The notes under the pieces: generated by a model
Seen by the model: only the letters and a program-made list of their open reading frames with translations
Told to the model about the DNA's origin: nothing
Database searches by the model: none
Assembly: GCA_900313005.1 (NCBI GenBank)
Contig: ONZJ01000002.1
Span: 2,682,996 to 2,746,995, forward strand
Length of the DNA stretch: 64,000 bases
Direction: 5' to 3'
Source of the DNA: Rhodobacteraceae bacterium EL129
GTDB taxonomy: Bacteria; Pseudomonadota; Alphaproteobacteria; Rhodobacterales; Rhodobacteraceae
Shown here: in pieces, positions 24,902-43,580 of the stretch
How the letters are laid out: each line of letters opens with the position of its first letter
How positions within the stretch are numbered: position 1 is the first letter of the stretch
Translations under genes and position numbers: made by a program

Positions 24902-24946
24902 CGACCCGTTCAAACAAACCTCAAAACAACAAATGAAGTGAAAGCT

Positions 24947-26533
24947 ATGACAAGACGAATTTATGGAACACCCGAAGCAGATCAAATCGATGGCGGCGCA
25001 GGGCCTGACAAGATCCTCGGCAAAGCAAGTGATGACGTCATCACATCCGGCAACAGCGCCGATCGCGTTTTGGGCCAAGGTGGCAATGACACCATCTCAG
25101 GCAATGCCGGTGGCGACGTACTAATCGGCGGAAACGGACAGGACGTCATCAATGGCCACACAGGTCAAGATCGTCTCTATGGCGGGGCTGATGACGACAT
25201 TCTGTCTGGCGGTGGCAGCAAATCCTCCGGCGGCGGTGGTCAAGGCGGTGGCATTGACGACCGGCTATGGGGCGGTGCTGGCGATGACATTATGTCAGGC
25301 AATGGCGGCAATGACAGGCTATCCGGTGGGCAAGGCTCTGACACGATGTACGGCAACGAAGGGGCGGATCGCCTTAATGGTGGAGCCGGAGATGACCAGA
25401 TGGATGGCGGTTCGGCAAACGACGTGGCCAATGGCGGGTCAGGAGATGATGTCGTTTCTGGTGGGGATGGCGCGGATCGACTGTACGGTGCCAGCGGCCA
25501 AGATGCCATTCTCGGTGGTAGCGGATCCGACAAGATCTACGGTGGCGCAAATGCTGACACTCTGGAAGGTTCTGCTGGGAATGATCAGCTGTTTGGCGCA
25601 GATGGTGATGACGTCCTTATCGGCGGCAGCGGTGGAGACCAGTTGTACGGTGGCGAAGGCAATGATCAAGTTGAAGGCGGCCAAGGCGCTGATCAGGTTT
25701 GGGCTGGCAACGGCGATGATCAGGTCTTTGGCGGCGATGGCAACGACGCGCTTGGCGGTGGGGCCGGCGACGATTCACTGATGGGTGAAAATGGAAACGA
25801 CACGTTAAATGGGCGTTCTGGTGACGATAACCTTTCTGGCGGAACAGGCGCGGATGAGTTGGTCGGCGGTGAAGGTGCGGATCTGCTCAGCGGCGATGAA
25901 GGTGCGGATTGGTTAAGCGGCGGTCGCGGACAAGATACCCTGGACGGTGGGATCGGCAATGATGAACTCTGGGGACATGCAGATAATGATGTACTCTCGG
26001 GTGGTGCCGGTCTCGACACACTCAATGGCGGAAATGGTGCAGATCAGCTCGATGGTGGTACGGGTCGTGACGTTTTGCATGGTGGTTCTGGTAATGATGT
26101 CCTGCTTGGCCAAAATGGAGAAGATACGCTCGACGGAGGGGGCGGCACTGATCAACTGATCGGCGGAACAGGCAACGACGCTCTGGATGGTGGATACGGA
26201 CACGATGTCCTTGATGGGGGTAGCGGTGTCAACACACTGACCGGCGGATCCGGAGCGGATGAGTTCGTATTCTCATCGCTAGATTCCTACTTCTCGAACA
26301 CGGTGAGGGATTTTCAGATCTACGGAGCGAACAAGGATACCCTCAATCTGTCTGATTTCGATTTGCTTGCAGAGTACGACACGCTCGATGACTGGCAAGT
26401 TGAAAACGTCTCCGTGCTAGCCGATGGAACCGTGGCCATCAATATCTCACACTCGCAGACGGTGTTCATCACTGATCACGCTGAGATTGGGGAAACCTTC
26501 GTCGACAGCGTGTTGGATTCCATTCTCTTCTAA
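24947..26533 (+). CDS. RTX calcium-binding repeat protein, likely type I-secreted matrix protein
   Basis: About 528 residues. From about residue 10 to 440 it is almost wholly made of GGxGxDxLx nonapeptides (for example GGAGDDIMSGNGGNDRLSGG), interrupted once by a Gly/Ser-rich segment near 88-101. Each repeat pair binds calcium to form a parallel beta-roll outside the cell. The last 90 residues (from ADEFVFSSLDSY to SVLDSILF) look like the uncleaved C-terminal type I secretion signal. There is no N-terminal signal peptide and no enzyme domain. No type I transporter is in the window. Its place between synthase and barrel genes suggests a matrix or capsule-binding role. Confidence 0.92.
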   Translation: MTRRIYGTPEADQIDGGAGPDKILGKASDDVITSGNSADRVLGQGGNDTISGNAGGDVLIGGNGQDVINGHTGQDRLYGGADDDILSGGGSKSSGGGGQGGGIDDRLWGGAGDDIMSGNGGNDRLSGGQGSDTMYGNEGADRLNGGAGDDQMDGGSANDVANGGSGDDVVSGGDGADRLYGASGQDAILGGSGSDKIYGGANADTLEGSAGNDQLFGADGDDVLIGGSGGDQLYGGEGNDQVEGGQGADQVWAGNGDDQVFGGDGNDALGGGAGDDSLMGENGNDTLNGRSGDDNLSGGTGADELVGGEGADLLSGDEGADWLSGGRGQDTLDGGIGNDELWGHADNDVLSGGAGLDTLNGGNGADQLDGGTGRDVLHGGSGNDVLLGQNGEDTLDGGGGTDQLIGGTGNDALDGGYGHDVLDGGSGVNTLTGGSGADEFVFSSLDSYFSNTVRDFQIYGANKDTLNLSDFDLLAEYDTLDDWQVENVSVLADGTVAINISHSQTVFITDHAEIGETFVDSVLDSILF

Positions 26534-29920: not shown

Positions 29921-31078
29921 TTACGCTGCAATGGGAAGTTCGGGCAAAAGCGCCTCATGTTCCGCCTTCATGCAGAGGCTTAGCTTCATATGCAGCGCCT
30001 TGAGCGTGTCGTAATCCCAGTCGAATGAAGCGATTTTTGACGTCACATCAAACAACACCGGCGCAATGCAATCACGCTCGGCCTGATACAGGCGCGCATC
30101 GCCGGGAGTGGCCCACAAGGCCTGAGCAATGCGGTTCGCGTCAAGAAACGCATCGGTAATGCCATGCGCGGTGGCAGGATCCTTGAAATACCCCGCATCG
30201 CCGACTAGAGCCCAGCCGGGCCCGGCGCATTGCCGAATATGACCTGGCGCACCGGCAAAGCGACGCATTTTTTCGATTGCGCCACGTTGCCCGAGGTCGG
30301 CGACGCTATCAGGCTCCCAAGCAGACAGGATGGTCATGGCACCTTTGAAAGCATCGTGCCCAAACCATCTGTGGAATGCCTTTGGTGTGCAGGAGGTAAA
30401 AAGGCAATGTGCACCATTTGTGGTGGGGATCAGCCCCGATGACGTGCCCGCTCCGAAGTACCAGCGGTATCCCTGGTTTGGCACACCGTCCACATAGGTA
30501 TAGACGGTTGCGGACCGATGCGCGGAGGTCTGGATTGTCCGGGCCCCCACGCTCTGGGCGACGATTGACCGGCGCCCGTCCGCTCCAATCAGCATATCGG
30601 CATAGACTGACTGATGTGTGCCATCCGGCTGGCGCAGAATTGCACCGACCACGCGTCCGGACTGGTCTGTAATGGTCGAAACAAAGCTAACACCGGTGTG
30701 CAGCTCCGCGCCCGCGGTAACAGCTGCATCGCGCAGGACAGCATCCAGCAACCATCGACGCGGTGCATAAAGGCCATCGGCTGCACCGACTGGTTTTACG
30801 TCAACCACGATCTCTTCTGCACCGTAGTGAAATTGCGTGCTCCGCACAGCAGGCGTCCCCCCGGCCTTGATCCGGGGCAGCAGCCCCCATTGATCCAGCA
30901 AGGTCACTGCTGGACGCATCAGGGCGTGGGTTGACAGTGTGTCGTGCATTTTGGTCTCGCGATCCACGATCAGGACCCGCGCCCCATTGCGGGCCATCAG
31001 CATGCCAGTGGCAGCACCAGCGCAGCGGGCTCCGATGATGATGACGTCGTAGCGGTTATGTTTGAATGCTTGTGTCAT
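29921..31078 (-). CDS. FAD-dependent monooxygenase / geranylgeranyl-reductase-like flavoprotein
   Basis: A 385-residue single-component flavoprotein. It has the N-terminal dinucleotide fold (DVIIIGARCAGAATGMLMAR) and the second FAD motif with GD (WALVGDAGYFKDP). It belongs to the group A hydroxylase/halogenase-like superfamily; no WxWxIP halogenase motif is seen. It starts at the ATG at 31078 after AGGAG, 19 bases after the upstream monooxygenase gene, so the two are co-transcribed. The substrate is unknown; a role in tailoring an amine or thiol product of this cluster is inference. Confidence 0.88.
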   Translation of the reverse strand: MTQAFKHNRYDVIIIGARCAGAATGMLMARNGARVLIVDRETKMHDTLSTHALMRPAVTLLDQWGLLPRIKAGGTPAVRSTQFHYGAEEIVVDVKPVGAADGLYAPRRWLLDAVLRDAAVTAGAELHTGVSFVSTITDQSGRVVGAILRQPDGTHQSVYADMLIGADGRRSIVAQSVGARTIQTSAHRSATVYTYVDGVPNQGYRWYFGAGTSSGLIPTTNGAHCLFTSCTPKAFHRWFGHDAFKGAMTILSAWEPDSVADLGQRGAIEKMRRFAGAPGHIRQCAGPGWALVGDAGYFKDPATAHGITDAFLDANRIAQALWATPGDARLYQAERDCIAPVLFDVTSKIASFDWDYDTLKALHMKLSLCMKAEHEALLPELPIAA

Positions 31079-31097
31079 GTTGGAATTCTCCTGCATT

Positions 31098-32330
31098 TCA
31101 GGCGGCGAGTGAGCGGGGAAGCCCCGCAATCAGATGATTGGCAAGAGCGCGGGCATCGTCTGCGGCCCCGTCGATGAAGGTTGATTTGCGTTGGCGCAGA
31201 TAAGGCAGACCCATGGCGTAAAGCCCGCCCGCAACCACACCGCCTTCATGTGCGAGGTTGCCCTTGCGATCAAAGACCGGCAGTTTGAGCCAGCTGAAGT
31301 CAGGCTTGTAACCCGTGGCCCAGAGCACAGCGCCAAACCCCTCCGCCGCCAGATCAATACTCAGACGCGGAGCGGCTGGCACCTGTGTGGGCGCGTAGCG
31401 TTCCGGCGGGGTGGAAAGCTCTGTCTGTCTCTCGGCCTCGACCCACTGATCAATCGCGCCAAGCAGACGGTTCATTTTCAGATCAGCAGCAGCGCAATGA
31501 TTGGCCAGCGAGCCCGAGAAAAGCGCACGGCCCTGCTGGATCGTGGCCAGACGACCGGTGATTTCGACCCCAAGCTCCTGAAGCGCGTTGAGGTCAATCG
31601 TTTCTCCGGCAACCAGGGTGAGCGAAGGTGTGCGGCGCACCCGGTTAATGTCATCGACCTCCGTGTAGGGTGTGGTTGTGGTGCCCAGACGCTCCATCCA
31701 CGTGGTGATATCCGCATCGCGATAACGGCGCGGGAAGCGCAGGTGATTGCCGACCGCCAAAACCACCTGACGACCTGATTGCTGAATTTCGCGGGCCAGT
31801 TGCAAGCCTGATGCGGACGCGCCGACCACCAGGATCTTGCCATCCGGCAGCTGCGATGGGCGTTTGTAGCTTTGCGGAGTGACGCTCAGGATTCCGGGCG
31901 GTATTTCAGAAGCAAAGCCAGGGATTTTCGGCAGCGCGCAGGCGCCGTTGGCCATGACCACGCTGTCGGCTGTGAACTGGCCTTGGTCGGTTTGAATTTG
32001 ATACGCTCCGGGCATCCCATCGACGGACACCACCGTGGTGCTGGGCAGGATGGGGGCGTTTGATCTTGCCGCGTAGTTGTCAAATTGGTCAACAAGATCA
32101 GAGACTTTCATGAAGCCGTCGGGATCAGAACCAGAGTCGGCTTGGCCATGTAATCCGTTCATCCGATTGGGGGTGAGCAGGCGCAGGCTGTCCCAGCGCT
32201 CGGTGCGCCAGCTGTTGCCAACGCGGCCGCGTTCGATGATCAGATGATCCACTCCGGCCCTGGTCAGCTCGTGGCTCATGGCGAGACCCGAATGACCAGC
32301 GCCGATAATGATTGCAGATCTGTGTTTCAT
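31098..32330 (-). CDS. NAD(P)/FAD-dependent flavin monooxygenase (CzcO/FMO-like)
   Basis: A 410-residue flavoprotein. It has an N-terminal FAD motif (AIIIGAGHSGLAMSHEL), an NAD(P)-binding Rossmann motif (ILVVGASASGLQLAREI) and a third motif, VLWATGYKPDFSWL, typical of class B monooxygenases. Such enzymes oxidise soft nucleophiles (N or S) or insert oxygen next to ketones. The ATG at 32330 directly precedes the FAD motif; a frame extending to 32492 adds an unrelated basic leader and is rejected. It belongs with the OsmC and DUF1127 genes upstream. Confidence 0.9.
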   Translation of the reverse strand: MKHRSAIIIGAGHSGLAMSHELTRAGVDHLIIERGRVGNSWRTERWDSLRLLTPNRMNGLHGQADSGSDPDGFMKVSDLVDQFDNYAARSNAPILPSTTVVSVDGMPGAYQIQTDQGQFTADSVVMANGACALPKIPGFASEIPPGILSVTPQSYKRPSQLPDGKILVVGASASGLQLAREIQQSGRQVVLAVGNHLRFPRRYRDADITTWMERLGTTTTPYTEVDDINRVRRTPSLTLVAGETIDLNALQELGVEITGRLATIQQGRALFSGSLANHCAAADLKMNRLLGAIDQWVEAERQTELSTPPERYAPTQVPAAPRLSIDLAAEGFGAVLWATGYKPDFSWLKLPVFDRKGNLAHEGGVVAGGLYAMGLPYLRQRKSTFIDGAADDARALANHLIAGLPRSLAA

Positions 32331-32436
32331 GTCCGTCGTCCATCGTTCAGGGCATCGCAGGCGTTTGTCCGGATGCGGGGTTTTTCTTGAGGGAAGGTTG
32401 CGGTGGCAGCGGGAGGATCTGCCACCGCAGAGGCGC

Positions 32437-32655
32437 TCAGTGTGCGCCGGGATGAGAGAAGGTGTTTGCCATCGCCTCTCTGACGTCGGCACGGGTTAGG
32501 CCGATATCGGCCAGCTCGCGATTGGTCATGCGCAGCATGTGTCCATAGGTGCGCCGATCTTTGCGATGTAGCGCGTGGTCTTTCAGAGCCTTCCGAGCTT
32601 TTGCGAAAACCGATACGCTGGGGACGCGGGTCATGTGGTCGATGAGATGTGCCAT
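32437..32655 (-). CDS. Small DUF1127-domain protein
   Basis: A 72-residue basic protein ending in the DUF1127 signature, here LRMTNRELADIGLTRADV. Proteins of this kind in alphaproteobacteria are small, often stress- or phosphate-responsive, and can bind RNA. It sits between the OsmC gene and the flavin monooxygenase gene on the same strand. Its role in this cluster is unknown. Confidence 0.85.
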   Translation of the reverse strand: MAHLIDHMTRVPSVSVFAKARKALKDHALHRKDRRTYGHMLRMTNRELADIGLTRADVREAMANTFSHPGAH

Positions 32656-32687
32656 TTTCTGGCTCCTTTGGCGGGGATGTCCTTTCG

Positions 32688-33254
32688 TCAGTTCACACTG
32701 ACATGGACATTGGTGGGGTTGGTGATGATGTCGAAGACAGCCGAGCGTTTCTGCGACTGGGCAACCACGGCGGCAATGTCTTCCTGGCTTGCATCGGCAT
32801 CAATGTCGAAGGACACGCGAATGGCCGAAAAGCCGTTGCGGATATCCGCATCAATGCCAAGAATGCCGGAGACATCCATGTCGCCCTCTACTTTGGCACG
32901 CACCGAATGCAGTTGAATGCCACGGTTCTGCGCAACAGAGGCGACTCCGGCGGTCAGGCAGCTGGCGAGCGCGGAAAGCACGATCTCAACCGGCGTGGCA
33001 CCCAGATCGGAGGCCGCGAATTGCGGGGGGTGATCGGCGTCGATCGTGAACTCACCACTATGCGCCTGTTCTTCACCAAGGCCGAAGAAGCTCTTGACGG
33101 TTGAGCGGCTATGCACCCCACCCATCCAGTCGCATTCAGCACGCCAGGTAAATTGTGCGGCGGCCGGGGCTTCGGTGAGGGCGGCACGCGCACCCATCAG
33201 GGCGTCTACGTTTACGCCATTGTCAGCGGTTTTAACTTCGGTTTGTACGTTCAT
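32688..33254 (-). CDS. OsmC family peroxiredoxin-like protein
   Basis: A 188-residue OsmC/Ohr-fold protein. The family reduces organic or lipid hydroperoxides through a reactive Cys. Here LSALASCLTAGVASVAQNRG holds the conserved peroxidatic-type Cys. The first-position Cys of Ohr is not evident at the equivalent place (CDWMGGVHSR is nearby), so thiol chemistry needs testing. It is the first gene of the minus-strand group that continues with DUF1127 and two monooxygenases, and a conserved palindrome lies upstream. Confidence 0.9.
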   Translation of the reverse strand: MNVQTEVKTADNGVNVDALMGARAALTEAPAAAQFTWRAECDWMGGVHSRSTVKSFFGLGEEQAHSGEFTIDADHPPQFAASDLGATPVEIVLSALASCLTAGVASVAQNRGIQLHSVRAKVEGDMDVSGILGIDADIRNGFSAIRVSFDIDADASQEDIAAVVAQSQKRSAVFDIITNPTNVHVSVN

Positions 33255-33358: not shown

Positions 33359-33429
33359 TGTTTCAGTCCGATGTCGCGGGTTGGGCATTCATGTTTCAGT
33401 TGTGAAACTGTTTTGCCAAACGTGTTTCA
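33359..33429. promoter_or_regulatory. Operator cluster upstream of the OsmC gene (TGTTTCA-N4-TGAAACW plus phased half-sites)
   Basis: TGTTTCA-GTTG-TGAAACT at 33392-33409 is a near-perfect 7-4-7 palindrome, matching the site at 40443-40460 in all but one arm base. Two further TGTTTCA half-sites lie at 33359-33365 and 33423-33429, that is 33 and 31 bases away, close to three helical turns. This suggests cooperative binding by one regulator upstream of the OsmC group. Confidence 0.6.
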
Positions 33430-33519: not shown

Positions 33520-34980
33520 TCACTCAGCAGAAATCGGAAGGTCCACAACAAAGGTCGCACCGGGCTGGCTGTTTGCTTCCAGGCGTATCTGCCCTTGATG
33601 CGCGTTTACCGTGCGCAGGCAAAAGGCCAGTCCGACGCCAGTGCCTTTGCCTGTTTCTTTGGTGGTGAATAAGGGGTCGAACACCCGGTTCTTGATCATT
33701 TCCGGGATGCCGGGGCCATTGTCTGATACGGTTATGCGCAGGAAACCATCCAGCGGCTGACATTCCAGTTCGATCCGATCACCGAAACCCGCATCTCGGA
33801 TTGCATGGGCGGCGTTGATCACAAGGTTGATGATAACCTGGGACATCTGCACCTCATCCGCGGTCACAGGCGGGCAATCATCAGGGCAGGTTACATGCAG
33901 GCCAATGCCCCCCTTGTCCAATTCGGCAGAGGTGGCCTCTTTCGCGATCTCAATCAATTTGCGCGGAGCCACAGGCGCCAGATCAAGAGGCTCTTCGCGC
34001 GCAAGCGATAGAAAGGACCGGACAATCCGCACGCAACGATGGGCGGCAGTAGACAGCTTGTCCAACCGGCGGCTGAGCACGGTGCCTTCAAGCTCTTCCT
34101 GCAAAATATCCGCATTGCCGACAATGATTGATAAAGGGTTGTTCAGCTCATGTGCAATTCCAGCCAAGAGCTCTCCCAGGGCCGACATTTTTTCAAGCTG
34201 GAAAAGCTGTTCTTTTTGTCGATCCAGTTCCGCCTGCACGGACAACTCGTCTGTTAGATCCTCGATATTGGCGACAATCACATCTTCGCCACGATAATCA
34301 ATCAGGCGGGCGGAGACATCAGCCGGAAATTCCTGGCCATCTGCACGCAGGCAAGTGGCGCGCATATTGTCCACCATGCCGTCTGGTAACAAAGCCGTCA
34401 CGAAATCGGCACGCTGTTTTCGATGGGCGAAATGCGCAAAACTACTGCGGGCTGTGCCCAGCAAGGCAGTGGCAGCTGGAGAGCGATAGAGGATTAGACC
34501 ATCATTGATCCGAGACATGGTGAGGCTGGCCGGACAAGCCTCAAGCACCTTGCGCAAAAGGGCTTCGGCCTCGCGTGCTGCATCCACTTCGGTGGTTTCG
34601 GCATGGGTGACAGTTTGGGTGAGGGCAAAACCACCGTCACTCGTCTGGTGGATCATGTAGGCAAAAACCTGTCCATGGGCGCTCGGCATCAAAACGGGAT
34701 CATTGGCGTCAGCCTCTCCGGTCAACCCAGATTCAATCAGATCCAATCGATTGCTAACTGGCTTCGAAAAAGCCGCGCGATTGACAGCCTCACGCAGGAA
34801 GATGTTCCAGGGCAATCCGGGCCTCAACACATCCAAAAGCGTGGCATGTGTGTTGCAGAAATGCGCATTGACAAGAACGAGACATCCCTCTGCATCAAAC
34901 AGGGCCACACCGTGGTCGATGACATCAATCACCTCGCGCAGCGTGTCCTGGCTTGTGGTCTCTTGATCGGGCACCGACAC
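33520..34980 (-). CDS. Cytoplasmic PAS-domain sensor histidine kinase (NtrB-like)
   Basis: A 486-residue soluble kinase. The N-terminus has a PAS_7-like domain (GVALFDAEGCLVLVNAHF, about 20-130), then a second PAS region (about 140-255). The HisKA domain reads EKMSALGELLAGIAHELNNP, with the phospho-acceptor His in AHELNN, and the HATPase has DNGPGIP and GTGVGLAFC. No membrane helix is present, so the signal is cytoplasmic. It starts at a GTG three bases after the cyclase gene, implying coupling, and ends before a strong terminator. It is a paralogue of the kinase at 40615. No receiver gene is directly attached. Confidence 0.93.
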   Translation of the reverse strand: MSVPDQETTSQDTLREVIDVIDHGVALFDAEGCLVLVNAHFCNTHATLLDVLRPGLPWNIFLREAVNRAAFSKPVSNRLDLIESGLTGEADANDPVLMPSAHGQVFAYMIHQTSDGGFALTQTVTHAETTEVDAAREAEALLRKVLEACPASLTMSRINDGLILYRSPAATALLGTARSSFAHFAHRKQRADFVTALLPDGMVDNMRATCLRADGQEFPADVSARLIDYRGEDVIVANIEDLTDELSVQAELDRQKEQLFQLEKMSALGELLAGIAHELNNPLSIIVGNADILQEELEGTVLSRRLDKLSTAAHRCVRIVRSFLSLAREEPLDLAPVAPRKLIEIAKEATSAELDKGGIGLHVTCPDDCPPVTADEVQMSQVIINLVINAAHAIRDAGFGDRIELECQPLDGFLRITVSDNGPGIPEMIKNRVFDPLFTTKETGKGTGVGLAFCLRTVNAHQGQIRLEANSQPGATFVVDLPISAE

Positions 34981-34983
34981 CAG

Positions 34984-36012
34984 TCAAGCTTTTTGCATTG
35001 GATCAGGCGCGTCTTCCAGCGTGACAAAACCGCCGTCGCCGACCTTGGGAGTGACCTGAAAACTGTCGCTGAACTGAGTAGCGAACTCTTCGTTTGAGAC
35101 CACCGTCATCGGATCGGCAATTGTCCGGTTGTGCATGGCGGCGGAAACGCTCGGGCCGAAAACATCGTAAATGTAGTTCTGGCTGCCCACGACTGATCCG
35201 ATCACAGACCCCGAGGACACACCGATGCGCGGGGACCATTGAATGGGATGGGACGTGTTGCGACGCTCCATGTACCGCAGGAACCTGACCGCAGAATTGG
35301 CGATGGCCAGGGCGTGATCTTCATTGGGATCAGGCACCCCGGATACGGCAACATAGCTGTCCCCATTGGTCCGGATACGCTGGCAGCTGAACTGCGCGCC
35401 AATGCGATCAAAGGCACTGTAAATGTCGTTCAGCTCGCTGACAATCACTCCAGGGTCGTGATTGGCCAGCTGCGCGTCAAACCCGACAAAATCAAGCGAA
35501 AGAACCGACACTGGTGCAAACAACTGAGGAGAGACCACTCCAAAAGTCTTGTATTCTTCATATGCAGCACGCGGCATCATGTTGAGAAGCAGTTTTTCAA
35601 CTTGCTCCTTTTCACGTTTGATCTCGTGTGTGTTGCGTTCAACCATGACGGAATAGGAATCGATCATCGATTCCAGTTCCTTGATCCGCGTGATGTTTTG
35701 ACAAACCAGAACCGCGATATTCTGAGACGTGTCTGTCGCACGATTGAACTCCATGGCAACGGTCATGGTTCGCCGCCGCAGCTTGAACGACGTTTCTGTC
35801 GTCAGCCGACCGCCACCGTTCATTTCAACGATCAGAGCGTCAACATCCAATTCAGGGAAGAGTTCGCCCAGATGGGCTGTCGAGGCGGCATCGGAAAACC
35901 ATTCGTTAAACGTATCGTTGCTGAAATTCAGGGCCAGAGTGTCGAGGTCAATCAGGGCGACGCCGACACCAATTGCACGCAAAAGCTGCTCGTTGATGGC
36001 TTCAATTGACAT
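34984..36012 (-). CDS. PAS/coiled-coil/class III nucleotidyl cyclase-like protein, soluble guanylate cyclase architecture
   Basis: A 342-residue protein. Residues about 1-115 form a PAS/H-NOXA-like domain. Residues about 115-165 form a signalling coiled coil ending in LLLNMMPRAAYEEYK. Residues about 170-335 form a class III cyclase domain, the same order as soluble guanylate cyclase after its heme domain. Metal-site Asp residues are present (LSLDFVGFD, RTNGDSYVAVSG). The transition-state segment, normally VNxAxRM, reads SVSAAMHNR, so the usual Asn and Arg are changed and activity is doubtful. The ATG at 36012 overlaps the globin gene by 11 bases, so globin and cyclase are translationally coupled. 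Confidence 0.85.
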   Translation of the reverse strand: MSIEAINEQLLRAIGVGVALIDLDTLALNFSNDTFNEWFSDAASTAHLGELFPELDVDALIVEMNGGGRLTTETSFKLRRRTMTVAMEFNRATDTSQNIAVLVCQNITRIKELESMIDSYSVMVERNTHEIKREKEQVEKLLLNMMPRAAYEEYKTFGVVSPQLFAPVSVLSLDFVGFDAQLANHDPGVIVSELNDIYSAFDRIGAQFSCQRIRTNGDSYVAVSGVPDPNEDHALAIANSAVRFLRYMERRNTSHPIQWSPRIGVSSGSVIGSVVGSQNYIYDVFGPSVSAAMHNRTIADPMTVVSNEEFATQFSDSFQVTPKVGDGGFVTLEDAPDPMQKA

Positions 36013-36373
36013 TGGGTTTCTCAACCAGAAGGACGCGGCGCTTTTCAAAGCCTTCAAGGATCACGTCGACATCCTCGGTGGCGACATCAAACTCCACCAG
36101 CGTTTCGGAAACGATCTCTTTCAAGCGATCAAAATGCAGATTCTCTATCGCCATATTGCGGTGCGCGCGTTCGATATGATCATCCGAGAACGAGGCCGGA
36201 CCACCCATCAAAGACGAAATGAACTTAGTTTGGTGGTCGATCAGTTTTGGCAAATCAATATCGTCAAAAAACGGCCCGACATCTTCGTCCTCGATCATCC
36301 GGTCATAGAATGTCAGAACAATTTTGCTGATGGTTGAAAAGCCACCATATTTATCAAAAAGCGTTTTTTCCAT
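36002..36373 (-). CDS. Truncated hemoglobin (group I-like), putative gas sensor partner
   Basis: A 123-residue heme protein. Features are FDKYGGFSTISKIV at the N-terminus, the B10 Tyr in TFYDRMIED, CD1 Phe in PFFDD, the GGPASFS turn and the proximal F8 His in RAHRNM. Truncated globins bind O2 or NO. The ATG at 36373 follows GGGGAAG and gives a normal length; an in-frame start at 36409 would add 12 residues. It overlaps the cyclase gene, which places this globin where the H-NOX domain would be in a soluble guanylate cyclase. Confidence 0.92.
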   Translation of the reverse strand: MEKTLFDKYGGFSTISKIVLTFYDRMIEDEDVGPFFDDIDLPKLIDHQTKFISSLMGGPASFSDDHIERAHRNMAIENLHFDRLKEIVSETLVEFDVATEDVDVILEGFEKRRVLLVEKPNVN

Positions 36374-36413: not shown

Positions 36414-37271
36414 TTATGCAGCCGATGCCATAGTATTTGCACAGGAATTCATGATCCGGTCAACGCCATTGATAAAGCGACCAATTGCGGGATCGACCAG
36501 ATGCGGATCCGTAAGCGGCAACATATGCCCCGCCCCATCGAACAAGGTTTCACCGGCAAACGGAAGTCGGGCCAACAGATGACGGGACAAGATTTCAACC
36601 ACGGCCGGTGAAGCGGTTCCGCGCAGGATTTGTACCGGGCAAGCAACGTTTGCCAGGTGGTCTGCCGTCATCTTATCATTTGCCATGGCCCTGAAGTCAT
36701 TGACAACCTGGGCTGCCAACGATGCCAGTTTCACTCGCATATCTACAGAGCTGCGCTGCCAGGTACCGGAACCATTCCAAAAATCGAAAAACCGGTTCAT
36801 TGCGTCGAACGGCTTGCCATGTGCCAACCGGGCGCGCGTGCATTGAGCCATAGAGACAAACTTGCGGGTTTGCGGCGCTGAAATGCCGTGCTCTGTCCAG
36901 TAAGGGCTGAAGGTTGCAGGTTCGATCAGGGTCAGGCTCAGCACCTTATGAGGGGTCAACGTGGCCAATTTCAATGCAACCGAAGCGCCAAAGGAATGGC
37001 CAACCAAATGAACCGGCTCGCCAATGTCGGTGATCAGGTCCAAGAGGATTTTCGCGGTGTCTTCCAATGATGGGGCTACGCCTACAGGCCGCGCGCTGTT
37101 TCCGTATCCGGGCAGATCCGGGATCACTACGCGGTGGTTGGCTTTAATGTACCCTGTCAGGCTGCGCCATTGTTTGCCGTTGCTCGCAGAGCCATGCAGC
37201 AACACGACGGGGGTTCCTTCCCCTTCCTCGGTAACATGCAAGCGGTGTGGCGTGCGAAGTTGAATGGTCAT
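36414..37271 (-). CDS. Alpha/beta hydrolase
   Basis: A 285-residue hydrolase. It has the oxyanion segment VVLLHGSASNGKQW, the nucleophile elbow GHSFGAS and the catalytic His in FDGAGHMLPL. No signal peptide is present, so it is cytoplasmic. The ATG at 37271 follows AAGGACG. It precedes the globin gene by about 40 bases and probably shares its transcript. Its own upstream region carries several TGTTTCA-type half-sites. The substrate is unknown; an ester or amide intermediate of the local pathway is a guess. Confidence 0.9.
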   Translation of the reverse strand: MTIQLRTPHRLHVTEEGEGTPVVLLHGSASNGKQWRSLTGYIKANHRVVIPDLPGYGNSARPVGVAPSLEDTAKILLDLITDIGEPVHLVGHSFGASVALKLATLTPHKVLSLTLIEPATFSPYWTEHGISAPQTRKFVSMAQCTRARLAHGKPFDAMNRFFDFWNGSGTWQRSSVDMRVKLASLAAQVVNDFRAMANDKMTADHLANVACPVQILRGTASPAVVEILSRHLLARLPFAGETLFDGAGHMLPLTDPHLVDPAIGRFINGVDRIMNSCANTMASAA

Positions 37272-37446
37272 TGGTGCGTCCTTTCGTCTAAACAAATGTT
37301 GTGTTGAAACCGTTATTAAGCACCGCGTGTTTCATCTGTTTGTCCGAATGGCCGCTAGTGCGTTTCATTTGTTTCAAACGCCGGAATGCATAGACCCTCA
37401 CCAGGTAATCTGGCGAGGGTCCGTTCGCAGTTCCGAGAGGCTTGGT
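37272..37446. promoter_or_regulatory. Gap between decarboxylase and hydrolase genes with hairpin and TGTTTCA half-sites
   Basis: GACCCTCACC (37393-37402) and GGCGAGGGTC (37412-37421) form a 10-bp hairpin after the decarboxylase stop, fully paired with one G-U only in the minus-strand RNA. Downstream, TGTTTCA occurs at 37328-37334 and 37370-37376, with GTTTCA at 37362-37367 and TTGAAAC at 37304-37310. It is likely that a second regulated promoter serves the hydrolase-globin-cyclase-kinase genes. Confidence 0.5.
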
Positions 37447-38856
37447 CTAGGCGCCGATATCCGCCCACAGCGTTTTAATTTTGCGGGCGAGGGCTTGGAT
37501 GTGATCCGGTCCGGTTTCAAACCCAATAATCGAGACTCGCAACACGCGCTGTCCGCGCCATTCTGCTGTGCGAAAGAAATGCTGCCCATCGGCATTAAGG
37601 GCTTGCTCCATCGCCTGCACCATCTGATCTGAATCGCCCTGCCCGCGATCAAAACTCAGGACCACCTGATTGAGAACAACATCATTCAGCACCCGTACAC
37701 CGGGGGTGGTTTGCAACTTGTGGGCCAGCAGGCTGGCGCAGTCACAGTGATTGCGCACCATGTCGCTGATCCCATCCCGGCCCAGCGCTTTTAGTGTGGC
37801 CCACACCGCGAACCCGCGTGCCCGGCGCGATAGCTCGGGATTGTAATGGGTGGCATGGCGTCCATCTTCAGGTGCTAAAGGCAGGTAGCTGGCCGAGATG
37901 TCCATAGCACGGCGATGCGCCTGCCGGTCCCGCACAATGGCAAAGCCCGCATCAAACGGGATCTGCAACCATTTGTGGCCATCCGTTGACCAGCTATCGG
38001 CACGGTCAATCCCGCTTGTCAGATATTTCGTGCTCACACTGGTCCGCGCCCAAAGCCCAAAGGCAGCATCCACATGCAGCCATGCATCGTGCTGGGCGGC
38101 CAGATCGGCCAGCGCGTGAAAATCATCAAATGCGCCCGAGTTAATGTGGCCGGCGGTGGCTATGACAATTTTGGGACCATCGACAAGCGCCATGCGCTCG
38201 GCCAGATCAACCAGGATCATGCGACCCTGATCATCCGATGGCACCCGGCTGATATTACGGTTGCCAAAACCAAGGTAACGCAAGGCCGCAAGGTTCGACA
38301 CATGTGTGTCGTCTGAGGCGAAGATTGTGATACCTGGTGCGCCCTGCAACCCGTCTGACGCGAGGTCATAGCCTTTGCGCCGCAAAACCTCGTCTCGTGC
38401 AGCGGCAAGGCCGATGAAACCGGCCATCGTTGCCCCAGTGGTGATCCCGACAGAGGCCGTGCGTGGCAGATCAAGGACATCGAGAACCCAATCGCAGGCC
38501 ACTTCTTCGGCTGTGGCCGCGGCCGGGGACCCTTGATAGATACCCGCATTCTGACCCCAGATGGAGGTCAGCCAATCCGCAGCCACCCCGGTTGGATGAG
38601 AGGCTCCCATGACCCAGGCGTGAAACCCGGGTTGCGTGTTGCCGACAAGTCCGGGTTCTGCTGCGTGGATCAACTCGGCGATCACATCCTCACCCGGCTG
38701 CGCCTTGGCAGGCAGTGGACCACCGAAGGCATTACGCAGCTCGGCCAGGCTGGCCGTGGGGTGCAGGTTGGTTTTGGTCTCGCGGTAGCCGTTGGCATAG
38801 GACGCAGCCAAGGCCAATGGACCGGAAACGGTGGGAAAAATATGGGTCTGTTTCAT
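37447..38856 (-). CDS. PLP-dependent group II amino acid decarboxylase
   Basis: A 469-residue decarboxylase of the aromatic-amino-acid/glutamate/cysteine-sulfinate type. HVDAAFGLWA contains the Asp that pairs with the PLP pyridine nitrogen. DGHKWLQIPFD holds the Schiff-base Lys near 294. The ATG overlaps the stop of the CysK-glutaredoxin gene (ATGA), so the two products are made together. That coupling suggests the substrate is the amino acid made by the CysK-like enzyme, for example a cysteine analogue, giving a thio- or substituted ethylamine. This is inference. Confidence 0.9.
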   Translation of the reverse strand: MKQTHIFPTVSGPLALAASYANGYRETKTNLHPTASLAELRNAFGGPLPAKAQPGEDVIAELIHAAEPGLVGNTQPGFHAWVMGASHPTGVAADWLTSIWGQNAGIYQGSPAAATAEEVACDWVLDVLDLPRTASVGITTGATMAGFIGLAAARDEVLRRKGYDLASDGLQGAPGITIFASDDTHVSNLAALRYLGFGNRNISRVPSDDQGRMILVDLAERMALVDGPKIVIATAGHINSGAFDDFHALADLAAQHDAWLHVDAAFGLWARTSVSTKYLTSGIDRADSWSTDGHKWLQIPFDAGFAIVRDRQAHRRAMDISASYLPLAPEDGRHATHYNPELSRRARGFAVWATLKALGRDGISDMVRNHCDCASLLAHKLQTTPGVRVLNDVVLNQVVLSFDRGQGDSDQMVQAMEQALNADGQHFFRTAEWRGQRVLRVSIIGFETGPDHIQALARKIKTLWADIGA

Positions 38857-40328
38857 CTCGGGTGAATCCAGTTCGGCAGGAAGGAATAGGCGTTGACGTT
38901 GCCTGAAGGCGCGCAAGCAAGGCCGTTGGCTATTAACCGGTCCTGCAAGCTGCCGTCATTGAACGCATCGAAGGTTTCAGTGGCGCCGCCAATATGTTCA
39001 CCTCCAACAAAGACCTGAGGAATTGTCGCCGCACCAGTAATCTGGCGCAGGGCCACGCGCATTTCAGCGCCCAGATTGTCTTTCTGATACGCGACATTAT
39101 CGATATCCACGCTTTCATAGGCGATACCAGCGGCGGCAAACATCTTGCGCACCGACCAGCAGAATTCGCACCATTCCAGAGAAAAGACGAGCACGGGCTT
39201 TTCGGCAACCATCGCCTTGACCTTCGTCATCACGTCCGGGCGCGCGGCTTGCGCGGCACTTGTGGGGGCCGCTGGACCCGGAATATCAAACCGCGCCTGC
39301 TCGGTCGAACGGGACAGAGCCATCTCCTCTGCCGTCATCTCCTCCGGAACATCTTCAAACAGAGGGGTGGACAGGTAACGCTCTCCGGTATCAGGCAGCA
39401 TGGCCAGAATGCGTGACCCTTCCGGTGCGGTTTCGGCCACTTTCAGTGCGGCAGCGAAAGTGGCCCCACCGGTGATACCGCAGAATATGCCTTCCTTGCG
39501 AGCCAGTGCCTTGGCCATTGCGATCGCATCTGCACCCGCAACCGGTTGCATCTGGTCGATCAGATTACCTTCCAGTGCAGTGTTTGCCAGATGGGAAATA
39601 AAATCAGGCGACCAGCCCTGCATCGGATGCGGGCGGAAGTCAGGATGGCTTTCGGCAGCACTGCCGTCCGCATTGAAGGCCTGAACTGAACCGCTGCCCA
39701 AAAGCTGAGCATTATCGGGTTCTGCCGCGATCACTCTTGTCTTGGGGCTTTGCGCCTTCAGGACACGGGCCACACCGGTCAGCGTGCCGCCGGTGCCAAA
39801 TCCCGTCACCCAATAGTCCAGCCCATCAATGCCGAAATCGCGCATGATTTCCTGTGCGGTTGTGGTGCTGTGGATGTCGGCATTGGCTGGGTTCTCGAAC
39901 TGGCGAGACATGAACCAGCCATGTTTTTCGGCCAGCTCACGGGCCTTGGCGACCATGCCGCTGCCTTTCGCGGCGGCTGGAGTCAGAACCACTTTTGCGC
40001 CCAAAAAACGCATCAACTTGCGGCGTTCAACGCTGAAGCTTTCGGCCATGGTGACAACCAGGGGATACCCCTTTTGCGCACAGACCATGGCAAGCCCGAT
40101 GCCGGTATTGCCAGATGTGGCTTCGACCACGGTCTGTCCGGGTTTCAGCGTTCCGTCACGCTCGGCCGCTTCGATGACGCCAAACGCCAGACGGTCTTTG
40201 ACAGAGCCCATCGGATTGAAAGCTTCCAGCTTGACGAACAGTTCGACACCTGCCGGGGCAAGGTTGTTGATTTTGACAATCGGAGTGTTTCCGATCGTCT
40301 CGAGGATGGAGGATTTTATATTCATCAT
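38853..40328 (-). CDS. Cysteine synthase (CysK-like) fused to a C-terminal glutaredoxin domain
   Basis: A 491-residue fusion. Residues about 1-315 are a PLP beta-substituting synthase: K44 in NPMGSVKDR, TSGNTGIGLA and the phosphate loop GTGGTLTGVA. CysK normally joins O-acetylserine with sulfide. After a linker rich in Ala and Pro, residues about 370-480 are a glutaredoxin with the dithiol site CEFC near 386-389 and the TIPQVFVGGEHIGG loop. Standard CysK lacks the second domain. The first of two ATGs (40328) follows AAAGGA. It is the first gene of the minus-strand series, with a conserved palindrome about 115 bases upstream. Confidence 0.92.
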   Translation of the reverse strand: MMNIKSSILETIGNTPIVKINNLAPAGVELFVKLEAFNPMGSVKDRLAFGVIEAAERDGTLKPGQTVVEATSGNTGIGLAMVCAQKGYPLVVTMAESFSVERRKLMRFLGAKVVLTPAAAKGSGMVAKARELAEKHGWFMSRQFENPANADIHSTTTAQEIMRDFGIDGLDYWVTGFGTGGTLTGVARVLKAQSPKTRVIAAEPDNAQLLGSGSVQAFNADGSAAESHPDFRPHPMQGWSPDFISHLANTALEGNLIDQMQPVAGADAIAMAKALARKEGIFCGITGGATFAAALKVAETAPEGSRILAMLPDTGERYLSTPLFEDVPEEMTAEEMALSRSTEQARFDIPGPAAPTSAAQAARPDVMTKVKAMVAEKPVLVFSLEWCEFCWSVRKMFAAAGIAYESVDIDNVAYQKDNLGAEMRVALRQITGAATIPQVFVGGEHIGGATETFDAFNDGSLQDRLIANGLACAPSGNVNAYSFLPNWIHPR

Positions 40329-40442: not shown

Positions 40443-40460
40443 TGTTTCAGTAGTGAAACA
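40443..40460. promoter_or_regulatory. Perfect palindrome TGTTTCA-N4-TGAAACA between CysK-Grx and hybrid kinase genes
   Basis: TGTTTCA-GTAG-TGAAACA has exact 7-bp arms. It lies in the divergent region and could control both directions. The same motif with one arm change occurs at 33392-33409 upstream of the OsmC gene, and related half-sites occur before the hydrolase and EamA genes. Which regulator binds is unknown; the OmpR-type protein at 42870 or an unlinked enhancer-binding protein are candidates. Confidence 0.65.
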
Positions 40461-40553
40461 GTGGAATAGAGTGCTAAAAATTTTCAAAACCGCATAAAAT
40501 CAATAAGTTATTTTGAATACCGGCAATCCATCTCAAGACAGGCTTGTTACAAT

Positions 40554-40592
40554 TGAAACAAAACAACGCAGCACTGAAAACGAGCTGAAACA
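40554..40592 (+). promoter_or_regulatory. Phased TGAAACA half-sites in the leader of the hybrid kinase gene
   Basis: TGAAACA occurs at 40554-40560 and 40586-40592, 32 bases apart. The first is exactly 100 bases from the TGAAACA arm at 40454, close to three steps of 33. If translation starts at the ATG at 40615 they are non-coding; if it starts at the TTG at 40513 they are inside the gene. The spacing supports a regulatory reading. Confidence 0.4.
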
Positions 40593-40614
40593 TTCGCCGG
40601 ATAAGACGGAATAC

Positions 40615-42873
40615 ATGACCGTAAAAACGCATCGACAACGCATCACTCAGGATCCGGAATCACTTGATCTGGTCTGGGACGCACTTGAAGCTCTCTCAGA
40701 GGGCATCGCAATTTATGATGCCAACCACACGTTGGTGACCTGCAATCAACGCTATATGGACATGTATCCGCTGGTGGCGGACCTGATTAAGCCAGGCGCA
40801 GTTTGGGAAGATCTGGTGAGGGCCGGGGCGGAACGTGGGCAGTATGTGGATGCAATTGGGCGTGTCGAGGAATGGATCGCGGAGCGCAAGGCAGCAGGTG
40901 AGAGGTTCAAACAGAATCCTGAGGCGCAGAACCGGGAAATTGAACTGACCAGCGGCCAGATTTACTTCACTCAGTTCAGCATAACGCAACACGGTGGATT
41001 TGTTGTCACCAACAGCGACATTACTCAGAGAAAACGGGCTGAGGCCATGGTCCGTGAACGCGAGAACATTTTAAGCATGGTGTTAGAGACCAGCCCGATT
41101 GCGATTGTCATGGCGCGGCTGGATGACGGCAAGATCCTGTACCGCTCTCCTCATGCGCTTGCGTTTCTTGGAAACATAGACAACGCAGCAGAAAGTTTTG
41201 CCGACCCCAGCGATAAGGACGACTATGTTGCCGCGCTAAAAAAATCGGGGCGCGTGGATGACTATCACCTCACTCTTTTGAATGCAGACGGAAAGCGCTG
41301 TGCGACAGCTTCTTGGGGCAGGTTGACTGAATTCGAAGGGGATATCTATGCCGTGACCGCAGTCATGGATCAAAGCGAAAAGCAGGCGCAGGAAGCGTTG
41401 ATCCGACGGGTGCTGGAAGCCTGCCCAGCACCCATCCAGATGACCGAAGCGAATTCAGGTGAAGTGCTGTTTAGCAGCCCCGAGACGATCGCCTTGTTCG
41501 GGTCTCAGGAAAAAGCAATGTCGTTTTATGCCGATTCCGATACCCGCGCCCGATACCTAAAGAGATTGCAGCGCGAAGGCTCGGTTTCAGAGTTCAAGGC
41601 CGAATACATCAATTCTGACGGAGATCGGTTCTGGGGCGCGGTATCTGCCCGGCTGATCCGGTATGATGGCCGGGATGTCATCGTCTCTCACACACGAGAT
41701 CTTACCGACCAGATGCGCATCGAAGCGGAACTGGCACAACAGCAGGATCAACTTTTCCAGAACGAGAAAATGTCAGCAATGGGGGAGTTGCTGGCTGGTG
41801 TGGCACATGAGTTGAACAACCCCCTGTCTGTGGTGGTGGGCCACGCCCTGATGCTGAGCGAAGATTGCAGCGATCCCAAGATTTCACGCCAGGTTAACAA
41901 GATCAGTGGCGCAGCAGAGCGCTGTGCCAAGATCGTGAAAACCTTTCTGACCATGGCACGGCAACAGCCGGTCAAGATGCTGAACGTTGATATAAACGAA
42001 ATTGTCCAGACTGCGACAGATGTTGCCGGGTATGGTAATGCCGGTGCAGGCCTGACAATCGCAAGTCAACTGGCGGAAGGTCTGCCGAAAACCGGCGTGG
42101 ATCCCGACCAGATTACCCAAGTGGTGATCAATCTTATCCTGAATGCCGAACAAGCCATGAAAAGCAGTGGGATCGGGGAACGGATAACGGTATCGACCCG
42201 TGTATCCGGTTCTGGAGAGAGGATTGAAATTTTTGTCGAAGACGATGGCCCCGGCATTCCCGAAAATTTGCGAGGCCGTATTTTCGAGCCCTTCTTCACC
42301 ACCAAAGATGTGGGTGATGGTACGGGTATCGGACTGGCCCTGTGCCATCGCATTATTCAGACCCATGACGGCAGTATTACCCTGGACACGCCACCAGGTG
42401 GAGGTGCGGTTTTTAAAGTTTCACTGCCCCTTTCTGCGGCTAGAACGCGCCATCCGAATGATCAATCACCCGAGCACAAAGATCCAACCACAACCCGCAT
42501 TCTTATCCTGGATGATGAGGCGGATGTGGCTGAACTGAATGCGGAAATTTTGGAACGTGACGGTTACCAGGTGGATGTATTCAGCACTGCCGCCCCGGCA
42601 ATAGAAAGCCTGCGCCTGCATAACTATGATCTGATCCTGAGTGATCTGCACATGCCGGAAATTGACGGGCGCGGTTTTTTCGAGATTATCAAGGACGAAT
42701 TTCCAGAGATGATTACCAAAACTGGATTTGTAACAGGAGATACAATGGGTCGTTCGTCGCAAAGCTTTCTTAAAGAAGCGAACCGGCCTTGCGTCGAAAA
42801 GCCGGTATCTCCCAAGGAATTGCGCAGTTTCGTGGCAAAGCTGCTCGTGAAGTCAGGACAGGACAGCGAATGA
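40615..42873 (+). CDS. PAS-rich cytoplasmic hybrid histidine kinase
   Basis: About 752 residues without membrane helices. The first domain is PAS_7-like (EGIAIYDANHTLVTCNQRYM). Two further PAS units follow (about 150-260 and 275-390). The kinase core reads EKMSAMGELLAGVAHELNNP with the phospho-acceptor His, and the HATPase has EDDGPGIP and GTGIGLALC. A C-terminal receiver domain (about 635-745) has its Asp in LILSDLHMPEIDG. It is a paralogue of the kinase at 33520. The start is unsure: an in-frame TTG at 40513 exists, but the ATG at 40615 is preferred. It overlaps the response regulator gene by four bases. Confidence 0.92.
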   Translation: MTVKTHRQRITQDPESLDLVWDALEALSEGIAIYDANHTLVTCNQRYMDMYPLVADLIKPGAVWEDLVRAGAERGQYVDAIGRVEEWIAERKAAGERFKQNPEAQNREIELTSGQIYFTQFSITQHGGFVVTNSDITQRKRAEAMVRERENILSMVLETSPIAIVMARLDDGKILYRSPHALAFLGNIDNAAESFADPSDKDDYVAALKKSGRVDDYHLTLLNADGKRCATASWGRLTEFEGDIYAVTAVMDQSEKQAQEALIRRVLEACPAPIQMTEANSGEVLFSSPETIALFGSQEKAMSFYADSDTRARYLKRLQREGSVSEFKAEYINSDGDRFWGAVSARLIRYDGRDVIVSHTRDLTDQMRIEAELAQQQDQLFQNEKMSAMGELLAGVAHELNNPLSVVVGHALMLSEDCSDPKISRQVNKISGAAERCAKIVKTFLTMARQQPVKMLNVDINEIVQTATDVAGYGNAGAGLTIASQLAEGLPKTGVDPDQITQVVINLILNAEQAMKSSGIGERITVSTRVSGSGERIEIFVEDDGPGIPENLRGRIFEPFFTTKDVGDGTGIGLALCHRIIQTHDGSITLDTPPGGGAVFKVSLPLSAARTRHPNDQSPEHKDPTTTRILILDDEADVAELNAEILERDGYQVDVFSTAAPAIESLRLHNYDLILSDLHMPEIDGRGFFEIIKDEFPEMITKTGFVTGDTMGRSSQSFLKEANRPCVEKPVSPKELRSFVAKLLVKSGQDSE

Positions 42874-43580
42874 CAACCTCAGCACATATTTTGATCTGCG
42901 ATGACGAACCTGATGTGCGTGAGATGCTGGAGGAGTATCTGTCCAAACGCGGTTTTTCCACCACGGCAGTGGCCGACAGTAACGCCTTGCGTGCAGCACT
43001 GTCCGAAGCCGTGATTGATCTGGTCCTGCTCGATATCAACATGCCTGGCGAAGACGGGCTGACCACGCTTCGAACGCTCAGAAGCACGGATCAAGTCCCG
43101 GTGGTTATGCTGACAGCGGCCGGAGAGGTAATCGACAAAATCGTCGGCCTTGAAATGGGCGCCGATGATTACCTCGCCAAACCGGTGGACCTGCGCGAGC
43201 TAGAGGCACGCATCAAGGCCGTGTTGCGCCGCAAATCCGAGCCCGAGCAAAAACAAACCTCCGGAGATGCACCAAAGACGGCGGCGTTTGGTTCATTCAC
43301 GCTAGATCTGACGGCTGCCAAACTGCTTGCCGCGGATGGCGAGGAGCTGGCTTTGACGGCGATGGAGTTCAACCTGCTGAGCCTGTTTGCCCGCAACAAA
43401 GGACGGGTGCTCAACCGCGATCAAATTCTTGAACTTGCTCATGATCGGTCCTGGGATCCGTTTGATCGCAGTATCGACATTCGTATTTCCCGCCTGCGCC
43501 GCAAGATCGAGGCGAACCCGCAAAAGCCACAGATCATCAAAACCGTGCGCGGGATTGGATATATTTACGATCCAGAATGA
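42870..43580 (+). CDS. OmpR/PhoB-family response regulator
   Basis: A 236-residue regulator. The receiver domain (about 5-120) has the acidic pair in LICDDEPDVRE, the phospho-Asp in VLLDINMPGEDG and the Lys in YLAKPVD. The winged helix (about 140-233) contains LTAMEFNLLSLFARNKGRVL and ends with IIKTVRGIGYIYDPE. Its ATG overlaps the kinase stop (ATGA), making them a cognate pair. It is the only DNA-binding regulator inside the 30-45 kb cluster, hence a candidate for the shared palindrome. Confidence 0.95.
   Translation: MTTSAHILICDDEPDVREMLEEYLSKRGFSTTAVADSNALRAALSEAVIDLVLLDINMPGEDGLTTLRTLRSTDQVPVVMLTAAGEVIDKIVGLEMGADDYLAKPVDLRELEARIKAVLRRKSEPEQKQTSGDAPKTAAFGSFTLDLTAAKLLAADGEELALTAMEFNLLSLFARNKGRVLNRDQILELAHDRSWDPFDRSIDIRISRLRRKIEANPQKPQIIKTVRGIGYIYDPE

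Follow-up and report, generated by a model that had tools for sequence, protein, structure and literature searches.

Truncated globins are mostly discussed as detoxifying or storage proteins. The described systems closest to the locus in our study are eukaryotic soluble guanylate cyclase (sGC), in which H-NOX, H-NOXA, coiled-coil and class III cyclase domains follow one another in a single chain; bacterial stand-alone H-NOX proteins, encoded beside a partner kinase or an HNOBA-GGDEF protein; and globin-coupled sensors (AfGcHK, NmpU of Myxococcus xanthus and the globin-coupled diguanylate cyclases), in which a globin or protoglobin is fused to a kinase or cyclase output. The available text on NmpU states that its autophosphorylation is sharply cut when the heme-binding His is missing (PMC11841059). 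A further point of comparison is the truncated hemoglobin of Roseobacter denitrificans, likewise a roseobacter truncated globin with Tyr B10 and Gln E11, but one placed in group II and having peroxidase activity; the words "cyclase", "histidine kinase" and "operon" are absent from the available portion of the text on it (PMC4319818). Among the papers listed in open-access searches, no title or abstract opening describes a truncated globin adjoining a class III cyclase, a scope outside which subscription journals mostly fall.

Our study describes such a pair, followed by a histidine kinase gene, in a window of 64,000 nucleotides (the whole stretch of DNA that was analyzed) from Rhodobacteraceae bacterium EL129. 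Its central features are the following.

36002-36373, minus strand: group I truncated hemoglobin P0001, 123 aa (Pfam Bac_globin)
34984-36012, minus strand: PAS - signalling helix - class III cyclase-like protein P0002, 342 aa, predicted to be catalytically impaired
35692-36012, minus strand: N-terminal helix and PAS/H-NOXA-like domain of P0002, residues 1-107 (secondary structure of the model; PAS_8 in 24 of 51 members)
35539-35691, minus strand: signalling helix of P0002, residues 108-158 (model and identity data)
35371-35373, minus strand: P0002 residue 214, Arg, at the position of the base-recognition Lys of 29 of 31 intact relatives
35143-35145, minus strand: P0002 residue 290, Ser, at the position of the transition-state Asn of 31 of 31 intact relatives
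35131-35133, minus strand: P0002 residue 294, His, at the position of the transition-state Arg of 31 of 31 intact relatives
33520-34980, minus strand: PAS_7-PAS-HisKA-HATPase_c histidine kinase P0003, no receiver domain, GTG start (Pfam; kinase tree)

The arrangement that the sequence-only reading had pointed out was borne out: the globin and cyclase genes share 11 bases (36002-36012), and a PAS histidine kinase gene starts three bases past the cyclase stop codon (gap 34981-34983). In P0003, PAS_7, HisKA (51.8 against a cut-off of 26.9 bits) and HATPase_c (76.5 against 26.4 bits) lie above the Pfam cut-offs and PAS_9 lies just below its own.

P0001 matches Bac_globin across residues 4-111 (E 2.6e-15) and is the sole match to this family in the genome (E <= 0.001). 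Among PDB sequences it best matches group I truncated hemoglobins, and its AlphaFold2 model (pLDDT 90.5) best matches M. tuberculosis HbN; the group I placement is by best match and not by a tree. In the register of the PDB group I globins, we take Tyr23, Leu44, His47, Gln48 and His71 to be positions B10, E7, E10, E11 and F8, and Tyr23, His47, Gln48 and His71 are found in 54 of 54 aligned globins. The 2/2 fold, His F8, Tyr B10 and Gln E11 of a group I (N) truncated hemoglobin are thus all found in P0001. In the cyanobacterial globin 1s69, the residue aligned with His47 is a His that we take to be the E10 sixth ligand of that globin, and endogenous six-coordination of the heme is therefore a possibility. 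The globin may respond to O2, NO, CO or redox state. In the window, as in its relatives, globin and output occupy separate reading frames; this differs from the globin-coupled sensors, which share with it a globin input to a kinase or cyclase, in that a separate 2/2 truncated globin takes the place of a fused domain and a cyclase-like chain stands between it and the kinase.

In P0002, the Pfam family Guanylate_cyc is matched across residues 162-305 (E 1.4e-27; 96.9 bits against a gathering score of 21.9), which places this region in the class III catalytic-domain family, and the fold matches agree. The AlphaFold2 model (mean pLDDT 86.9, pTM 0.57) contains an N-terminal mixed sheet-helix domain, a single long helix (residues 108-145) and a cyclase fold, and its eight best Foldseek matches in the PDB are human sGC chains. 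The order H-NOXA-like PAS, coiled coil and cyclase, which had been proposed as that of sGC downstream of its heme domain, is therefore upheld by fold. At the level of sequence families, the PAS/H-NOXA-like label holds in part: PAS_8 is found in 24 and HNOBA in 33 of 51 aligned members (E <= 0.01), whereas HNOBA in the window protein covers residues 94-148 only and remains under its gathering score (15.7 against 23.4 bits). Pfam gave no match to an H-NOX heme domain along the 342 aa of the chain. P0002 thus has the PAS/H-NOXA-like domain, long helix and cyclase fold of eukaryotic sGC in the same order, but its sensor is a separate truncated globin in place of the fused H-NOX and a histidine kinase gene comes after the cyclase gene. 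A further difference lies in the residues of catalysis and base recognition. Intact relatives carry a Lys/Asp base-recognition pair, and this pair is usual for adenylate cyclases; the "guanylate" part of the earlier label is consequently not supported. The full set (two metal-binding Asp, Lys/Asp or Glu/Cys, Asn and Arg) is incomplete in the window protein, which retains Asp174, Asp218 and Asp283 and has Arg214 in place of Lys, Ser290 in place of Asn and His294 in place of Arg. P0002 is predicted to be a cyclase-like protein and we do not class it as an active cyclase.

Matches to the cyclase protein were found in 20 of 146 genomes of relatives, 27 of 394 of the family, 18 of 385 of the class and 6 of 398 of the phylum, tallies that take in some generic cyclases matching the catalytic domain only. 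The position at which a match begins separates the two kinds: those starting at or before profile position 52 always have a globin gene upstream on the same strand, and those without a globin start at position 107 or later, including L063, which is cut short in its locus. The 398 genomes of the phylum sample yielded no PAS-reaching cyclase match outside the class. Our table has 72 rows, comprising 21 kinase-linked cyclases, 33 globin-linked cyclases without a kinase and 18 cyclases without a globin (17 generic cyclases and L063); the 54 globin-linked rows are non-duplicate and unbroken, identical sequences having been merged and L015/L080 and L074 excluded for broken frames. These excluded genes (G114, G681) contain in-frame stop codons and represent broken copies or sequencing errors. 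In 49 of 53 globin-cyclase loci the two genes overlap by at most 11 bases or are separated by at most 60. Conversely, in the 385 genomes of the class, 16 of 17 globins found at E <= 1e-40 adjoin a cyclase gene (the exception is in G126), against one of nine weaker globin places (E 1e-34 to 4e-23), in G114. The adjacency is repeated across many alphaproteobacterial families, and the pairing is therefore beyond chance; the globin-cyclase pair is a patchy but conserved alphaproteobacterial cassette. No fusion of globin to cyclase or of cyclase to kinase was found among the loci. An apparent globin-cyclase fusion in L038 was rejected, as a stop codon splits the frames and the alignment had run over it, and apparent cyclase-kinase fusions in L004 and L007 (open frames of 835 and 844) are likewise split by stop codons.

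The same genome contains other heme and cyclase genes. Its only H-NOX match overlaps an HNOBA-GGDEF gene elsewhere (L110 365-1983, minus strand), forming a split pair that resembles an NO sensor. The globin system is therefore additional to, and no substitute for, the H-NOX pathway, and the earlier proposal that the globin replaces H-NOX stands for P0002 only. Bacterial stand-alone H-NOX systems, including this pair, resemble our locus in having a separate heme protein gene beside that of an effector, and differ from it in that here the heme protein has a globin fold and a cyclase-fold intermediary stands between it and the kinase. Two other class III cyclase domains were found in the genome, both in proteins of unrelated architecture: the first (L108 1468-3228, minus strand) is accompanied by a ferredoxin domain and apparent membrane segments, the second by no further Pfam domain. 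In three alphaproteobacterial genomes, a truncated globin domain lies between the Hpt and dimerization domains of CheA-type kinases. Two of them read Hpt - Bac_globin - H-kinase_dim - HATPase_c - CheW (L187 1036-3363 and L189 1048-3351, both plus strand) and the third is cut by the end of its stretch (L188 2-1333, minus strand); since such globins are built into kinases, sensing by them is plausible. In L184 (1043-1854, minus strand) a globin gene overlaps a gene of 146 aa that appears PAS-like by eye; as it matches neither a Pfam family nor the cyclase profile, we do not claim a shared PAS domain.

Special attention was given to the kinase gene behind the cyclase. A cyclase was considered kinase-linked when phmmer matched the window kinase (E <= 1e-10) downstream of it, on the same strand and inside the flank that was fetched, about 1.5 kb for most loci; hybrid kinases that are divergent or lie upstream are not counted. 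By this definition, 21 of the 54 globin-linked cyclases are kinase-linked, and they form one clade (support 100/100) nested among the others in a cyclase tree with long branches at L066, L062 and L081. Our search for globin-cyclase-kinase adjacency, proposed as a check by the sequence-only reading, thus found the globin-cyclase pair conserved and the kinase adjacency conserved within this clade. What is new here is that cyclases with a linked kinase have lost catalytic residues and globin-linked ones without a kinase mostly keep them. Among the kinase-linked cyclases Asn is lost in 21 of 21, Arg in 20 of 21 and Lys in 20 of 21; in the 33 without a kinase, Asn is kept in 31, Arg in 31 and Lys in 29, the exceptions being L062, L066 and, at the Lys position only, L076 and L077, which have Arg. 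It is important to note that, because the 21 rows are a single clade, loss of residues and gain of the kinase coincide mainly in one historical event.

With L062 and L066 left out, the intact kinase-less reference set has 31 rows, in which 82 columns are at least 93% conserved; 68 of these 82 are still at least 90% identical across the 21 kinase-linked sequences. Four columns are kept in at most 10% of the kinase-linked set (290, 179, 294 and 214), and three of them are catalytic. Within the set, 5 residue types occur at the freed Asn position and 10 at the freed Arg position, and the helix that bears these positions has an identity of 0.51. The mean pairwise identity of the signalling helix is 0.92 in the kinase-linked set versus 0.69 in the intact kinase-less set; the higher identity of PAS and helix is partly expected, since the kinase-linked clade is younger than the reference set. 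Catalytic positions set free beside a signalling helix at 0.92 are as expected of a retained adaptor. One could also regard the cyclase gene of this clade as a relic in decay that encodes a protein with no function left: its catalytic positions drift freely, and L066, a very divergent, degenerate second copy that evolves fast, has no kinase seen and shares its genome with the kinase-linked L047, suggests that decay happens. Yet the frame is open in 21 of the 21 rows used (the two broken genes that were dropped are not kinase-linked), the helix is conserved as stated, and 14 of the 21 genes, that of the window included, still overlap the globin gene by 11 bases, so that we consider a relic very improbable.

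It is more difficult to dismiss residual catalysis. Asp174 is kept in 19 of the 21 kinase-linked proteins, and Asp218 and Asp283 are kept; with these metal-binding residues, residual nucleotide binding or weak activity of the window protein is possible. Natural cyclases with one degenerate half exist, as in mammalian C1/C2 and sGC alpha/beta, and the 33 kinase-less relatives are mostly intact. On these grounds, the window protein might still be a working nucleotide cyclase despite its unusual residues, or might serve as one of the two halves of a heterodimeric cyclase, in either case under the control of the globin; the kinase would then be merely co-transcribed or would read the cyclic nucleotide. 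We consider this unlikely: besides the near-complete loss of Asn, Arg and Lys, L034 and L047 also lack the metal-binding Asp174, the two further class III domains of the genome, the only ones found, have unrelated architectures, and the Pfam matches of the P0003 kinase and of the hybrid kinase described below include no cyclic-nucleotide-binding domain. Because of the same losses, the nucleotide route from cyclase to kinase, which the sequence-only reading had allowed, is not supported, and we favor an adaptor that would signal by contact.

The following neighboring features were annotated around these genes.

36414-37271, minus strand: alpha/beta hydrolase, first gene of the likely operon (Pfam Abhydrolase_6, E 4.9e-23)
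40513-42873, plus strand: PAS hybrid histidine kinase with a receiver domain (Pfam; in-frame ATG near 40615)
42789-43580, plus strand: OmpR-family response regulator (Pfam Response_reg, E 9.5e-30; Trans_reg_C, E 1.6e-24)
32688-33254, minus strand: OsmC-like protein, putative target (Pfam OsmC, E 2.2e-18; near the pair in several other loci)
29921-31129 and 31098-32330, minus strand: two FAD oxidoreductase genes, putative targets with OsmC (Pfam; near the pair in some loci)
38853-40328, minus strand: cysteine synthase - glutaredoxin fusion, putative target (Pfam PALP and Glutaredoxin; neighbor in most kinase-linked loci)
37328-37376, minus strand: candidate operator, tandem TGAAACNNNTGAAAC and a further TGAAACA, upstream of the hydrolase-globin-cyclase-kinase genes
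33359-33429, minus strand: candidate operator, three TGAAACA sites, one forming GTTTC-N6-GAAAC, upstream of the OsmC gene
40443-40592, plus strand: candidate operators in the stretch that separates the CysK-glutaredoxin gene from the hybrid kinase, namely GTTTC-N6-GAAAC and a TGAAAC pair

A homologue of the hydrolase adjoins the globin-cyclase pair in several loci and is absent from others, and homologues of the hybrid kinase also adjoin the pair in other loci. We searched for the OmpR gene in 24 genomes chosen for having the pair. In 11 of them (the window genome, G806, G291, G265, G357, G277, G334, G484, G087, G160 and G753) the best match, with 57-100% identity, lies 0.7-11.3 kb from the pair; that of G265 holds one in-frame TGA, and a second match in G265 (62%) and all matches of 56% or less are on contigs other than that of the pair. 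No close OmpR homologue was found near the pair in 13 of the 24, and six of the 24 have no match at E <= 1e-55. Five genomes with an intact cyclase also have the OmpR gene nearby, and therefore its linkage needs no erosion of the cyclase. The hybrid kinase homologue is near the intact cyclase in L090, L091, L097 and L102, and the OmpR gene is near it in L090, L097 and L102 and just outside L091, in G334; in L102 both precede the pair on the same strand. In L038 and G484, globin, cyclase, kinase with receiver and OmpR genes run in one direction, the receiver of G484 being read by eye at the end of the kinase. The L038 cyclase, from a metagenome bin labelled Nitratireductor that may be mis-binned, retains Lys and Arg and lacks Asn. 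In an unrooted tree of 24 kinase cores, restricted to loci longer than 8 kb, the window kinase clusters with the kinases encoded behind the cyclase in other kinase-linked loci, and the kinase-receiver of L038, which likewise lies downstream of its cyclase, stands next to these 14 (100/99). Outside the kinase-linked clade, L062 has lost Asn, Arg and Lys and is adjoined by an OmpR gene and a divergent hybrid kinase outside the operon; it groups on a long branch (96/78) with L012 and L044, close kin in which the cyclase is intact and a hybrid kinase is near (L090, L091).

TGAAACA or TGTTTCA occurs 23 times in the 64 kb. The 1033 intergenic bases of the window cluster contain TGAAACA eight times, against 0.25 expected. 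In many kinase-linked loci, a tandem TGAAACNNNTGAAAC lies upstream of the globin gene, often with another TGAAAC about 33 bp on. In the distant L102, whose cyclase is intact, all four TGAAACA in 12 kb sit upstream of the globin and OmpR genes, and each of the two genes has the tandem. TGAAACN{26,27}TGAAAC has nine sites genome-wide, versus one for the reversed control; three are in the cluster, upstream of the OsmC gene, the hydrolase-globin genes and the ATG of the hybrid kinase, and six fall outside the globin-cyclase cluster. The TGAAAC pair near the hybrid kinase is inside its longest open reading frame, ahead of the ATG near 40615. Repeat scoring was run on 33 loci, and 18 had a scorable intergenic region; enrichment was found in 10 of the 18 (P < 0.02, values that are optimistic as the repeat was discovered on the same loci) and none in eight. 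As a motif by itself, GTTTC-N6-GAAAC is weak (8 forward sites in the genome versus 12 for the reversed control), and the case therefore rests on the TGAAACA repeats. From linkage, we infer that the OmpR protein may bind them.

The OsmC gene and the two FAD oxidoreductase genes (29921-33254, minus strand) adjoin the pair in some loci, and L091 adds a SAM methyltransferase. A role of these genes in furan fatty acid synthesis was dropped, as UfaO is a DUF1365 protein and the words "flavin" and "OsmC" are absent from the available part of the source (PMC7380195). The window also encodes an RTX calcium-binding repeat protein at 24938-26533 on the plus strand (15 stretches, E 2e-91). The stress-type character of the neighboring genes, and the candidate operators that they would share, also fit an explanation without signalling by the globin, in which it detoxifies NO or peroxide as part of a stress operon under OmpR control (OsmC, flavoproteins, CysK-glutaredoxin) and cyclase and kinase form a separate sensor. 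Its Tyr B10/Gln E11 pocket is as in M. tuberculosis HbN, which carries out NO dioxygenation. However, the pairing of globin and cyclase genes, usually with an overlap or almost no gap, persists in loci where no homologue of the stress genes or the regulator is seen within 12 kb (e.g. L087, L089, L098, L099, L100, L101 and L104), and the globin-bearing CheA-type kinases come from the same class. We therefore regard detoxification without signalling as rather unlikely.

The reading that we prefer is a pathway from the globin through a pseudocyclase adaptor to the kinase and the OmpR regulator, operating by contact and descended from a working adenylate-type cyclase, to which we assign a probability of about one half. 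It builds on the observed gene order, conservation, residue losses, predicted fold, linkage to the regulator and clustering of the repeats. To these we add, as what we infer, docking, contact signalling, the route of phosphotransfer, DNA binding and the ligand. The globin would be a separate heme sensor subunit that docks on a cyclase-like homodimer at its PAS and signalling helix. In the ancestral cassette, which persists across Alphaproteobacteria, the cyclase protein is probably a working adenylate-type cyclase, and cAMP is probably the output of most lineages; in the window lineage the output would most simply be a contact signal to the kinase. The cyclase of the window clade, having lost the residues of catalysis and base recognition, would act as a pseudocyclase adaptor. 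A change of ligand or redox state at the globin heme may alter the PAS and helix of this adaptor, which by contact would set the activity of the PAS histidine kinase encoded by the next gene. Phosphate from this kinase would pass to the neighboring hybrid kinase or the OmpR-type regulator, and the latter would bind the TGAAACA repeats and control the globin operon, its own genes, and the OsmC-flavoprotein and CysK-glutaredoxin genes. The path may have begun with an intact cyclase that had the hybrid kinase and OmpR genes as neighbors, continued with a kinase-receiver placed behind a cyclase without Asn, and ended with loss of the receiver and further erosion of the cyclase. Somewhat more tentatively, at a little under even odds, we propose that the locus is a split gas or redox sensor in which a truncated globin acts on a histidine kinase and OmpR regulator via a pseudocyclase, an adenylate-type cyclase turned adaptor that perhaps binds nucleotide, and that it records a stepwise swap from second messenger to phosphotransfer on an unchanged heme sensor, with intermediates surviving.

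If this is correct, truncated globins would gain a conserved signalling partner, and bacteria would possess an analogue of sGC whose sensor is in a separate chain. The loci would then form a natural series, from an intact cyclase, through one that has lost Asn and has a kinase-receiver behind it, to a fully eroded one with a bare kinase, that may reveal how an enzyme becomes a signalling adaptor.
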